Assembly (NCBI GenBank): GCA_007693835.1
Contig: RECW01000130.1
Span: 1 to 56,817, forward strand
DNA length: 56,817 bases
Direction of reading: 5' to 3'
DNA from: Paracoccaceae bacterium
GTDB taxonomy: Bacteria; Pseudomonadota; Alphaproteobacteria; Rhodobacterales; Rhodobacteraceae
The notes below the pieces were generated by a model. The model saw only the letters and a list, made by a program, of their open reading frames with translations. It was not told the DNA's origin and ran no database searches. Made by a program: the position numbers and the translations under genes. Of the stretch, positions 31,317 to 37,873 are shown in pieces (the stretch's first letter is position 1; each line of letters opens with the position of its first letter).

Positions 31317-33980
31317 ATGACGTCCCTGAACGACATCCGGTCCACTTTTCTCGACTACTTCGCGCGCCATGGGCACGCGGTCGTCGAAAGCTCGCCGCTG
31401 GTGCCGCGCAACGACCCGACGCTGCTCTTCACCAACGCCGGCATGGTGCAGTTCAAGAACGTCTTCACCGGCGTGGAGAAGCGGGATTATGTGCGGGCCG
31501 TCACCTCGCAGAAATGCGTCCGCGCCGGCGGCAAGCATAACGACCTCGATAATGTCGGCTACACGGCCCGGCACCACACCTTCTTTGAAATGCTGGGTAA
31601 TTTCTCCTTCGGCGATTACTTCAAGGAAATGGCCATTCCGCTGGCGTGGGACTTGATCACCAAGGAGTTCGGTCTGCCGAAGGACCGTCTGCTCGTGACC
31701 ATCTACCACGACGACGACGAGGCCGCCGAGATCTGGCGCAAGCACGCCGGGCTTTCAGACGACCGCATCATCCGCATCGCGACGTCCGACAATTTCTGGT
31801 CGATGGGCGCGACCGGCCCCTGCGGTCCGTGCTCCGAAATCTTCTACGATCACGGCGACCACATCCCCGGAGGCCCGCCGGGGAGCCCCGACGAGGACGG
31901 CGACAGGTTCATCGAAATCTGGAACCTCGTCTTCATGCAGTTCGAACAGATCGATGAGAACCGTCGCGAGAACCTGCCGCGTCCGTCGATCGACACCGGC
32001 ATGGGGCTCGAGCGCATCGGCGCGGTGCTCCAGGGCAAGCACGACAACTACGACACCGACCTGCTCCGCGCGCTGATCGAGGCGTCGGCCCAGGCGACCG
32101 GCGCCGACCCCGACGGCCCAGGCCGCATCCACCATCGCGTCATCGCGGACCACCTGCGCTCATCGGCCTTCCTCCTCGCCGACGGTGTGACGCCGTCCAA
32201 CGAGGGGCGCGGCTACGTGCTGCGCCGGATCATGCGCCGGGCCATGCGCCACGCCCATCTGCTCGGCGCGACCGATCCCGTGATGCACAAGCTGGTGCGG
32301 ACGCTGGTGGCGCGCATGGGGCAGGCGTTTCCGGAACTCGGCCGCGCGCGGGCGCTGATCGAGGAGACGCTGCGGCTCGAGGAGGCGCGGTTCCGTACCA
32401 CGCTCGATCGCGGGCTGCGTCTTCTCGAGGACGAGTTGGCGACGCTCGCCGACGGCGCGCCGTTGCCGGGCGAGGCGGCGTTCCGGCTTTACGACACCTA
32501 TGGTTTCCCCCTCGACCTCACTCAGGACGCCTTGCGTGAGCGGGGCCGCGCCGTCGATCTTGCAGGTTTCGAACAGGCGATGGCGGCGCAGAAGGCGCGC
32601 GCCCGCGCGGCTTGGGCGGGTTCGGGCGAGGCGAGCGACGAGGAGATCTGGTTCGACCTGCGCGAGGAGATCGGGGCGACCGAATTTCTCGGCTACACCG
32701 CCGAGACCGCTGAGGGGGTCGTGCGCGCGTTGGTGGCGGATGGCGACCGCGTCGGCTCGGCGCAGGCGGGCGGATCGGTGCGTCTCGTCGCGAATCAGAC
32801 GCCGTTCTACGCGGAGTCCGGCGGTCAGGTCGGCGATCAGGGCGAGATCCGCACGGCGACGGGCCGCGCGCGGGTGACGGATGTGCGCAAGCGCGCGGGC
32901 GATCTCTTCGTCCATGACGCCGAGGTCGTCGAAGGCGAGATCGTGCAGGGCGAGAGCGCGATCTTCGTCGTCGACCCGACGCGGCGGTCGGCGATCCGGG
33001 CGAATCACTCGGCGACGCACCTTCTGCACGAGGCGCTCCGCGCCGCGCTCGGCGAGCATGTCGCGCAGCGGGGGTCTCTGGTCGCGCCGGACCGGCTGCG
33101 GTTCGACTTCGCCCACGGCAAGGCGATGGCGGCGGCGGAGCTCGCGGCGGTCGAAGCGGCGGTCAACGCCTACATCCGGCAGAACGCGCCGGTGTCGACG
33201 CGCATCATGACGCCGGACGAAGCGCAGGCGCTCGGCGCGCGCGCGTTGTTCGGCGAGAAATACGGCGACGAGGTGCGCGTCGTCGCCATGGGCGAGCGTC
33301 CCGCGGGTGAGACGGGCCCCGCGGGACGGACGTACTCCCTCGAGTTGTGCGGCGGCACCCATGTGGCGCGCACGGGCGACATCGGCTTGTTCAAGGTGGT
33401 CGCCGAGAGCGCTTCCTCCGCCGGCGTCCGACGTGTCGAGGCGCTGACGGGCGCGTCGGCCCTCGCCTTCGTCGACGCGCAGGAGGCGCGGTTGCGTGAA
33501 GCGGCGCAGCATCTGAAGTCGGCGGTGGAGGATGTGCCGGAACGGGTCGCCGCCCTTCTCGACGAGCGGCGCAAGCTGGCCGCCGAGGTTTCGGACCTGC
33601 GCCGGAAGCTCGCGCTTTCGGGCGGCGGCGCGGAGCCTGAGGCGCGGCCTGTCGGCGGCGTGCCGTTCCTCGCTCAGGTTCTGAAGGGCGTGTCGGGCAA
33701 GGATCTCCGCGCCTTGATCGACGCGCACAAGGCGCGGCTCGGATCGGGCGCGGTGCTGCTGATCGCCGACAGCGACGGCAAGGCGTCGGTCGCGGTCGGC
33801 GTGACGCCTGATCTCACGGCGCGTGTCTCGGCCGTCGAGCTGGCGCGCGTCGCGGCTGAGGCGCTTGGCGGCAAGGGCGGCGGAGGTCGGCCGGACATGG
33901 CGCAGGCCGGTGGGGCGGACGCCGCGAAGGCGCCTGCGGCGATCGCTGCGGCCGAGGCGCTGCTGGCCAGCGCCGTCTGA
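31317..33980 (+). CDS. alaS: Alanyl-tRNA synthetase
   Basis: [56 protein letters not shown]..., 887 aa. Confidence 0.98.
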
Positions 33981-33989
33981 GCAAGGCGC

Positions 33990-34007
33990 GCCGCCCTGAG
34001 GCGGCGG
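33990..34007 (+). terminator. Hairpin downstream of alaS
   Basis: CGCCGCC-CTGA-GGCGGCG, 7-bp stem and tetraloop 9 nt after the alaS stop. Confidence 0.45.
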
Positions 34008-34285
34008 TCGGGGCCGCGCCTGATCCGCCGAAGCAGCCCGCCCGGGGCCGTCGCCCGTCGGAGGGTCGGCAGGCGGGATGGCGCGGGCGACCGCCGCTTT
34101 TCGCGCCGTGTTCGACGAACCGCGCGCCGTTATCGCATCCATGGCGCGCTGTCGTCGATTTGGCGCGACGGTTGCGTCCCTTCAGGCGCTTTGGCGCGGC
34201 GCGCGCCGGCGTCGAGACGGCGTCGCGTCGGCCGCCCTTTCGTCAGAGCCGGAGAGGGTTCATGGAGCGGGCCTGCCGACCTGGC

Positions 34286-34561
34286 TCAAGGGTCGCGACG
34301 GTCGAGGGCCGCGACGGCGACTTCGATGCGCGCCAGATGCTCGGAGAGCTTTTTCTCCACGATCCAGATCGTCCGGTTCGTGTGTTCGGCTTCCTCGCGC
34401 AGAATGGGCGCGAGGTCCGGCTTGGCGCTGTCCTCGTCGGCTGCGGCGCGGCGCAGCCGTAGTGGTTCGGGCTTGCGCAATTCCGCGATCACCGCGACGA
34501 CGCCGCCGAAGAGAGCGCCGAGGAAGACCGAAAACGCGGTCACCATCTCTGCGTTGATCAT
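34286..34561 (-). CDS. Small protein: N-terminal TM plus charged/helical tail, unknown
   Basis: MINAEMVTAFSVFLGALFGGVVAVIAELRKPEPLRLRR...; 4 nt after the preceding ORF on the same strand. Confidence 0.65.
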   Translation of the reverse strand: MINAEMVTAFSVFLGALFGGVVAVIAELRKPEPLRLRRAAADEDSAKPDLAPILREEAEHTNRTIWIVEKKLSEHLARIEVAVAALDRRDP

Positions 34562-34565
34562 CGCC

Positions 34566-34982
34566 TCACAAACCGTATGTGCCGAGCTTCATCTTGGCGA
34601 CGTCCTGGCCCGCCGCGACGGCGCACCACGCGAAGCCGAGCGCGAAATAGCCGTAGGTCATCGCCGCCGGGCCGACATCGGGGGAATAAAACAGGATCGC
34701 CGCGATCCACGCGAAAAAGCCCGCGTTGGCCGACGTCGTGACGAGGCGCAGGATGGGCGTCCACCAGGCGGTCCCGTTGACCAGCAGAGCGATCATGTGG
34801 ACCGCGCCGAGCGCCATCGAAATGGCGGCCCACTGCACGGTCGTGAGCCGATCGAGCATCTGCAGATAGGGAGCGAGGCTGAACAGCCCCGAGGTGAACA
34901 GCGCCGAGCCGCCCCACACGGCGCTGAACCCGGCGAGGAACCACTCCAGCGGCCGATCCGCCCGTCGATGCGTCGTCATCAT
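34566..34982 (-). CDS. Predicted ~4-TM membrane protein, unknown
   Basis: Hydrophobic segments WFLAGFSAVWGGSALFTSGLF, WAAISMALGAVHMIALLV, ANAGFFAWIAAILFY, MTYGYFALGFAWCAVAAG. Confidence 0.7.
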   Translation of the reverse strand: MMTTHRRADRPLEWFLAGFSAVWGGSALFTSGLFSLAPYLQMLDRLTTVQWAAISMALGAVHMIALLVNGTAWWTPILRLVTTSANAGFFAWIAAILFYSPDVGPAAMTYGYFALGFAWCAVAAGQDVAKMKLGTYGL

Positions 34983-34992
34983 GGTCCGCGCC

Positions 34993-35394
34993 TCAGGCGA
35001 CCGCAGGAAGACGGCGCAGCTCGTTCATCAGGAACAGCAGCCAGTTCGCCGTGGTCGCCGCGTCGTGGGTTGCGTCGGTCAGCAAGCCCCATGGGCCGCG
35101 GGGAGAGAGACGCCGGCTCGCCATCGACCACTCGGAAAACAGGCGCTGGTCGATGCGCCAACGCGAAAGAAGACGCAAGTTGCTGTGGCGAGGATCGGTC
35201 TGGAGGCGGGCGTAAAGAATGTCGAGAGCGTTCGACGGGCCTTCGAGCATCTGGGCGAAGGTCATGTCCGACCAGAGGAGCATGCCGGTCAGGTCGAGCG
35301 CCGGGTTGTTGCGGTGCGATGCGTCGAGGATGCGGTCGATCATGCGCTGATTGGGCAGTTCGGTCGCCGTCGACACATAAATCAGGGCTTCCAT
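34993..35394 (-). CDS. BLUF domain blue-light photoreceptor (single domain)
   Basis: MEALIYVSTA...ILDASHRNNPALDLTGMLLWSDMTFAQMLEGPSNALDILYARLQTDPRHSNLRLL...FSEWSM: flavin-site Tyr6, Asn30, Gln48, Trp89, Met91 all present. Strong SD (AGGAAGGAGC) before the ATG at 35394. Confidence 0.85.
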   Translation of the reverse strand: MEALIYVSTATELPNQRMIDRILDASHRNNPALDLTGMLLWSDMTFAQMLEGPSNALDILYARLQTDPRHSNLRLLSRWRIDQRLFSEWSMASRRLSPRGPWGLLTDATHDAATTANWLLFLMNELRRLPAVA

Positions 35395-35572
35395 CAATGT
35401 GCTCCTTCCTCGAATTGATGTGGATATAGACAATCGAGCTTAATTTTGCGTGATCGTGAGGCGCTGTCCGCCCAGGCGACCGGCGCCGCGCCCGGCGCGC
35501 GCACGCGGGGGTTTCGATACCGCGCGTGGGCGCTCTATCTTCCGCAAAGACTCAGCAGCGGAGAATGCCCCC

Positions 35573-37873
35573 ATGGCCAAGTTCGGCGTCAGCCAGCCCG
35601 TCAAGCGCGTCGAGGATGCGCGCTTCCTGAGAGGCAAGGGCGCGTATGTCGAGGACATGGCCTTGCCCGGCGAGGCCCGCGCGGTGTTCGTGCGCGCCAC
35701 CGTCGCCCATGGCGAGATCGTGGCGATCGACACGGCCGCGGCGGTCGAAGCCGAAGGGGTGCTCGCGGTCTACACCGGCGCCGATCTCGACGGCGCGATC
35801 GACAACAGCCTCGACACCGCGCCGATCAAGAACCGCGACGGCTCGACCTGCGCCCTGCCGCGCCGCCCGCTGCTCGCCACAGGACGGGTGCGCCATGTCG
35901 GCGAGCCTGTCGCCGTCGTCATCGCCGAAACGCTGGCCGCGGCCAAGGATGCGGCGGAGATGATCGTGGTCGACTACGCCGATCTCCCGGTCGTGACCGA
36001 CACGGCCGAAGCGCTCCATGCCGGCGCGCCGGAGCTCCATCCGGAAGCGCCGGGCAACCTCTGCTTCGACTGGGGGATGGGCGACGAGGCGCAGGTCGAG
36101 GCCGCGTTCGCCAAGGCCGCTCGCGTCGTCTCGCTCGATCTCGTCAACAACCGCGTCGTCGCCAACCCGATGGAGACGCGCGGCGTGATCGCGAACTGGG
36201 ACGGCGCGCGGTTGCATGTCTTCGCCAACGGGCAGGGGCCGTGGGATCTGAAGGGGGAGTTGTCGCGCAAGCTCGGGCTCGACGAGGCGAAGGTGCGGGT
36301 CACCCACCCCGACGTCGGCGGCGGCTTCGGCATGAAGGCGGTGAACTATCCCGAGCAATTGGTCTGCGCCTACGCCTCGATCCAGATCGGCCGGCCGGTG
36401 AAGTGGATCTCCGAGCGCGCGGAAGGCATCGCCTCCGACAGCATGGGGCGCGACCACGTCACCCGCGCGCAGGCCGCCTTCGACGCGGACATGAAGCTGA
36501 CGGCGGTGCGCGTCGACTGCGTCGCGGCCATGGGCGCCTACCTTTCGCCCTTCGCCGTCTACATCCCCTCCGTGCTGGCGTCTAAGGTGCTGACCGGCGT
36601 CTACGACGTGCAGACCTACTTCTTCGGCGTGAAGGGCGTCTTCTCCAACACCACGCCGACCGACGCCTACCGCGGCGCCGGCCGGCCCGAGGCGATCTAC
36701 GTCATCGAGCGCCTGATGGACTACGCCGCCCGCGAGATGGGCGTCGACCCCGTCGATCTGCGCCGCAGGAACTTCATCCGGGAATTCCCTTACGTCTCCG
36801 CCACCGGCGAGACCTACGACGTCGGCGACTTCGACCGTGTGCTCGACCGCGCCATGGTCGAGGCGGACGTGGCGGGGTTCGCCGCACGCAAGGCCGAGAG
36901 CGCGAAGGCGGGCAAGCTGCGCGGCCTCGGCCTCTGCTACTACATCGAGTCGATCCTCGGCGATCAGAACGAGACCACCGAGATCAAGTTCCTCGAGGAC
37001 GGGGCGATCGAGCTCTACGTCGGCACCCAGTCGAACGGGCAGGGGCACGAGACGGTTTTCGCGCAGTTCCTCAGCGGCCGTCTCGGCGTGCCGTTCGAGA
37101 ACATCCGGCTGGTGCAGGGCGACACCGACCTGATCGCCCACGGCGGCGGCACCGGCGGGTCGCGGTCCGTCACCATGCAGGGCTCCTCGATCTGGGGCGC
37201 GGCCGACGCCTGGGTCGAGAAGGTGAAGCCCTTCGCGGGCGAGGAGCTGGAGGTGTCGGCGGCGGACGTCGAGTTCGTCGAGGGCGCGTTCCGGGTGGCG
37301 GGCACCGACCGCGCGCTCGACGTGATGGAGGTCGTCGCCCGCGCCCGGGCCAAGGGTCACGGCGAACTGCTCGGCGAACGGCGCGAGACGGTGACGCCAG
37401 GCCGCTCCTACCCCAACGGCGCGCACTTCTGCGAAGTGGAGATAGACCCCGACACCGGCGTCACGCAGGTGGTCAAGTACACCGTCGTCGACGACTTCGG
37501 CGTGCTGATGAACCCGATCCTCGCCGAGGGCCAGGTGCACGGCGGCGTGGTGCAGGGGCTCGGTCAGGCGCTCTGCGAGCATGTCGTCTACGACGAGGAC
37601 GGCCAGCTCGTCTCGGCGACGTTCATGGACTACGCGATGCCGCGCGCCGGCGACGCGCCGATGATCCCGTTCCACCACGAGGGCGTGCCGTCGACCGCCA
37701 ACGTGATCGGCATGAAGGGCTGCGGCGAGGCGGGCACGGTCGGCGCCTGCGCGGCGGTGGTCAACGCGGCGCTCGACGCGGTGTGGGAGGCCGGCGTGCG
37801 CCACGTCGACATGCCGATGACGCCGCTGCGCATGTGGGGCTGGCTGAACGCGGTGCGGCGCGAGGCGGCCTGA
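35573..37873 (+). CDS. Xanthine dehydrogenase/CO dehydrogenase family molybdopterin-binding large subunit (form II-like)
   Basis: GVSQPVKRVEDARFLRGKGAYVEDM...THPDVGGGFGMKAVNYPE...TTPTDAYRGAGRPEAIYVIERLMD...GCGEAGTVGACAAVVNA; AYRGAGR active-site motif. Confidence 0.9.
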   Translation: MAKFGVSQPVKRVEDARFLRGKGAYVEDMALPGEARAVFVRATVAHGEIVAIDTAAAVEAEGVLAVYTGADLDGAIDNSLDTAPIKNRDGSTCALPRRPLLATGRVRHVGEPVAVVIAETLAAAKDAAEMIVVDYADLPVVTDTAEALHAGAPELHPEAPGNLCFDWGMGDEAQVEAAFAKAARVVSLDLVNNRVVANPMETRGVIANWDGARLHVFANGQGPWDLKGELSRKLGLDEAKVRVTHPDVGGGFGMKAVNYPEQLVCAYASIQIGRPVKWISERAEGIASDSMGRDHVTRAQAAFDADMKLTAVRVDCVAAMGAYLSPFAVYIPSVLASKVLTGVYDVQTYFFGVKGVFSNTTPTDAYRGAGRPEAIYVIERLMDYAAREMGVDPVDLRRRNFIREFPYVSATGETYDVGDFDRVLDRAMVEADVAGFAARKAESAKAGKLRGLGLCYYIESILGDQNETTEIKFLEDGAIELYVGTQSNGQGHETVFAQFLSGRLGVPFENIRLVQGDTDLIAHGGGTGGSRSVTMQGSSIWGAADAWVEKVKPFAGEELEVSAADVEFVEGAFRVAGTDRALDVMEVVARARAKGHGELLGERRETVTPGRSYPNGAHFCEVEIDPDTGVTQVVKYTVVDDFGVLMNPILAEGQVHGGVVQGLGQALCEHVVYDEDGQLVSATFMDYAMPRAGDAPMIPFHHEGVPSTANVIGMKGCGEAGTVGACAAVVNAALDAVWEAGVRHVDMPMTPLRMWGWLNAVRREAA

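Follow-up and report, generated by a model that had tools for sequence, protein, structure and literature searches.

A gene for a short BLUF photoreceptor lies directly ahead of two genes for small membrane proteins in a 56,817-nt stretch of Paracoccaceae DNA (contig RECW01000130.1), hereafter called the window. This arrangement raises the question of whether the membrane proteins are the output of the light sensor or stand behind it for another reason. The original prediction favored the former and regarded phage lysis genes as a weaker alternative source of the membrane pair. The features concerned are the following.

34993..35394, minus strand: ORF1, a short single-domain BLUF photoreceptor of 133 aa, assigned from the Pfam BLUF match, PDB relatives, and key residues
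34566..34982, minus strand: ORF2, a protein of 138 aa with four transmembrane segments (4-TM), assigned from a phage-only profile, invariant residues, and an AF2 model
34286..34561, minus strand: ORF3, a protein of 91 aa with one N-terminal TM and a highly charged tail, assigned from position and architecture
35395..35566, no strand: intergenic region between the BLUF gene and a divergent xdhA-like gene, the presumed start of a three-gene transcript, described from sequence and a promoter scan

All three ORFs were intact and were separated by gaps of 10 and 4 nt on the minus strand, as originally described. The BLUF gene is preceded by an AAGGAG-type ribosome site, and GAGG was found upstream of both ORF2 and ORF3, in the latter case just 2 nt before the ATG. 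The GC content at the third codon position (GC3) ranged from 0.81 to 0.89 in the three ORFs; thus, all of them resemble coding sequence rather than frames left open by chance. The promoter scan of 35395..35566 revealed no sigma-70 consensus. Most likely, the three genes are co-transcribed from the BLUF side.

The first protein was assigned to the BLUF family with 93.5 bits (E 8.6e-27) against PF04940, for which the cut-off is 25 bits. The domain covers residues 2–92 and is followed by a C-terminal tail of 41 residues and no output domain. Direct counting located all of the flavin-site residues, namely, Tyr6, Asn30, Gln48, Trp89, and Met91, so that the earlier description of a complete BLUF site without an output domain was confirmed by both the Pfam match and the residue count. 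Judged from these residues, the protein is probably a working blue-light sensor. Its best PDB relative was PixD/Slr1694, and the other near solved structures were also BLUF domains. The protein resembles PixD/Slr1694, Tll0078, and BlsA in size, domain limits, flavin-site residues, and the absence of an output domain. Such proteins use partners: the single-domain protein PixD signals through PixE (PMC5899715), and the short BLUF protein BlsA acts through Fur (PMC5955987). Both partners are soluble regulators, whereas the BLUF gene of the window precedes a membrane gene pair.

Of the 395 genomes sampled from the order, 88 contained BLUF genes, which are thus common there, and the best relative found among them was 46% identical over the domain. 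A search of genome contigs with exact peptide patterns gave no close relative. The genome itself contains four BLUF genes; the three outside the block lie on contigs C254, C148, and C95 and have different neighbors.

An HMM search of both membrane ORFs had been suggested as a check, and it yielded nothing above thresholds in Pfam, NCBIfam, or PHROGs. Weak holin matches of ORF2 (PF04971, E 0.1; phrog_9876, E 0.018) were not used as evidence. In tblastn against phage records, ORF2 was 26% identical to a protein of Erythrobacter phage R16L over 90% of its length; Brevundimonas and Paracoccus phages gave partial matches. A phage-only profile was then built from 12 phage homologues with the window protein left out. 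Among 625 frames of the window, this profile found ORF2 at 3.6e-17, while the next frame reached 0.11. ORF2 scored 55.7 bits with this profile, compared with 8.1 bits for the best of 1000 ORF2 shuffles. The family was widened by scans of viral contigs to an alignment of 33 members, in which eight residues are invariant (R10, E13, W14, L66, N69, G70, P76, and R79), and ORF2 retains all eight.

The family includes Erythrobacter R16L ORF_30, Brevundimonas Delta_36, Paracoccus KLEP18-1 gp27, proteins of Sphingomonas phages Carli and Eidolon, and Agrobacterium JP1_045. ORF2 shares with these viral proteins its length and the motifs R, E-W, L-x-x-N-G, and P-x-x-R, whereas the identity to them is only 16–28%. 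The model phrog_8980, to which no function is assigned, matched 16 of the 33 aligned members, and ORF2 itself gave no match to it. The AF2 model of ORF2 computed from the alignment consisted of four helices (residues 11–29, 48–68, 75–99, and 105–137; pLDDT 88.6, pTM 0.81), in agreement with the predicted number of approximately four TMs. Searching the PDB with this model gave no fold match better than E 0.18. In a viral library, the best matches were unnamed proteins (E 2.4e-3) and a mycobacteriophage membrane protein (1.0e-2), which is suggestive only. No ORF2 relatives were found on plasmids, and exact peptide patterns detected no close relatives in the genome contigs searched. Altogether, the sequence comparisons strongly support ORF2 as a member of an unnamed 4-TM family of phage lysis modules, which partly corresponds to phrog_8980.

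The 4-TM gene of sequenced phages has a small gene immediately downstream, often overlapping it, as in R16L ORF_29, Delta_37, KLEP18-1 gp28, and others; prophage-like loci of the order of the window show the same succession. In IMG/VR loci, a crude test of hydropathy, by which some true cases (for example, L009) are overlooked, placed a 1-TM ORF directly after 70 of 94 family-matching ORFs. In the nonredundant set, the neighbors of known function were mostly endolysins, lysozymes, amidases, and peptidoglycan-binding domains; therefore, the pair looks like a component of the lysis module. In several of these phages, a 2-TM holin candidate or spanin candidates are encoded separately from the pair, so that any exact role of the pair there is tentative. 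Thus, of the holin/spanin-like label given in the original prediction, the lysis-module context was supported and the identity as holin or spanin was not proven. No demonstrated holin role for the 4-TM family was found in the literature searched.

A comparable arrangement is provided by LysF1a/LysF1b of the F1 mycobacteriophages Girr and NormanBulbieJr, both proteins being needed for efficient lysis (PMC13056207). LysF1b consists of a single N-terminal TM followed by a helical tail that is highly charged, and the two systems are alike in that adjacent multi-TM and single-TM charged-tail proteins are encoded in a lysis cassette (PMC13056207). This is a comparison of how the proteins may work and not of family membership; LysF1a has two TMs in contrast to four in ORF2, and the host is mycobacterial (PMC13056207).

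The third protein of the block shows the layout of the phage second gene, with one N-terminal TM, a charged tail, and a start 4 nt after ORF2. Its tail contains 26 K/R/D/E among 64 residues (41%), which bears out the single TM and charged tail described earlier. A profile made from the second genes of the phage pairs (38 sequences, ORF3 left out) gave it E 3.3, no better than chance frames; an earlier second-gene profile that included ORF3 is not independent evidence. Divergence among the phage second genes is very high, and KLEP18-1 gp28 and other short ones likewise lack the motif that the rest share. This divergence might account for the missing similarity of ORF3, which is an argument and not a proof. 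ORF3 would accordingly be the positional and architectural equivalent of the phage second gene, with sequence kinship unproven.

If the membrane pair were the output of the sensor, BLUF would bind the charged cytoplasmic tail of ORF3 (or the loops of ORF2), and blue light would switch a domesticated holin-like pair. The shared strand and the narrow gaps are consistent with such a module, as are the partner dependence of single-domain BLUF proteins and the preservation of ORF2 as an intact gene with its invariant residues. However, no second instance was found. The suggested conserved-neighborhood search of BLUF homologues was performed at 59 distinct loci other than that of the window (29 from a sample of relatives, 25 from the order sample, the three paralogues in this genome, and two extra), and neither an ORF2-like nor an ORF3-like gene was detected beside any of them. 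The flanks checked were mostly approximately 1.5 kb on each side, some being 3 kb or more and some cut by contig ends, and for ORF3 the profile used would miss divergent members. Conversely, no BLUF gene was found near the phage, prophage, or viral pairs tested. The ORF2 family occurred in 8 of the 395 genomes of the order, the window being among the eight, and in most of the other seven loci the match was surrounded by tail and lysis genes when translations were read by eye. In samples of 148, 289, and 385 genomes, at least the window copy and two weak matches in one genome were present, these counts being lower bounds because the number of candidates scored per genome was limited. Among the samples searched, the linkage of BLUF with the pair was found in this genome only. 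Furthermore, no close relatives of BLUF or ORF2 in which conservation of the block could appear were found in the genome contigs by exact peptide patterns. The proposed role of the membrane proteins as the output of BLUF therefore gained no comparative support. A light gate at the protein level is possible, adjacency being its one support, and the module as a whole is considered unlikely. Its most far-reaching form, in which a domesticated two-protein holin-like lysis device under a short BLUF protein constitutes a natural light-gated module for membrane permeabilization (or dormancy or self-lysis), is considered very unlikely.

The reading given somewhat better than even chances is that a captured phage lysis-module pair was placed behind the short BLUF gene in one lineage, where it is probably co-transcribed with no evolved coupling at the protein level. 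The phage origin of the pair, formerly the weaker alternative, was thus supported; for ORF2 the support comes from sequence, for ORF3 from position and architecture only. According to this proposal, a phage pair of 4-TM and 1-TM charged-tail proteins would have landed 10 nt behind the BLUF gene and would then have been carried on the BLUF transcript by proximity. By analogy with two-protein holin-like systems, the pair most likely would still act in a holin-like manner on the inner membrane, either permeabilizing it or setting the timing of lysis.

Several observations speak against capture. ORF2 is intact with all of its invariant residues, and the three genes are closely spaced in one direction, an orderliness not expected of a decaying remnant. 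ORF3 has no sequence link to phage second genes. No attachment repeats were found around the block, no tRNA was found next to it, and no further phage gene was recognized beside it among neighbors identified by reading translations rather than by profile search, so that these features do not reveal how the pair was captured. On the chromosome, the block stands alone between alaS on one side and the xdhA-like gene on the other. No endolysin, tail gene, or other lysis gene adjoins ORF2, whose neighbors are BLUF, ORF3, alaS, and the xdhA-like gene; the phage 4-TM loci usually differ in this respect, and those tested also in lacking a BLUF gene ahead of the 4-TM gene.

The chromosomal junction was compared with that in a single genome of the same genus. 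The order from alaS to xdhA (31317–37873 in the window) was absent from that genome, in which the two genes were approximately 155 kb apart on one contig without the block genes between them. A different gene followed alaS, and a divergent thiolase-type gene stood upstream of xdhA. The junction at which the block sits was thus absent there. As the genome of the window is in 280 contigs, the alaS–xdhA junction deserves confirmation. The fragmentation of the assembly and the separation of alaS and xdhA in the compared genome would also fit an explanation in which the junction is an assembly error or ORF2 and ORF3 encode bacterial membrane proteins with an unrelated function. So would the GC3 of BLUF (0.813) and ORF3 (0.815), both somewhat lower than in the flanks (0.88 and 0.943). 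However, the GC3 of the block genes was near the values of the host genes in the window, and the family membership of ORF2 is strong. This explanation is considered highly improbable, the least probable of those weighed.

Another explanation starts from the same junction and assumes that the three genes arrived together on a single phage or mobile element with BLUF as cargo, through which light could have set the time of lysis. In favor of this reading, the alaS–xdhA junction occupied by the block was missing from the same-genus genome, and all host homologues found for its BLUF protein are distant. This protein also matched the BLUF-like phage family phrog_19899 of PHROGs at 5.5e-17. However, among phage records, a detectable BLUF relative was encoded only in those of Acinetobacter phages, where it is annotated as ycgF, and a scan of viral contigs with the block BLUF found none. 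The frequency of BLUF genes in the order also speaks against this origin. Arrival of the block as one unit is thus regarded as distinctly unlikely, and separate capture of the pair remains the preferred reading.

If the coupling were true, the block would represent a natural optogenetic switch of lysis or permeability. It would also be, to our knowledge, the first known BLUF output acting at the membrane through phage-derived proteins. Whether coupled or not, the analysis outlines an unnamed phage family with a conserved 4-TM and 1-TM pair. Nothing on the role of this pair in phages was found in the literature searched, and this role is directly testable in a lysis assay. The pair is widespread in lysis modules, mainly those of alphaproteobacterial phages. 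Phages recorded with cyanobacterial hosts, namely, Nostoc phage Nsp-JY10 and Microcystis phage Mwe-JY07, also carry the 4-TM family. The copy in Nsp-JY10 was 58% identical to that in a viral contig (L013), and its recorded host may deserve checking.
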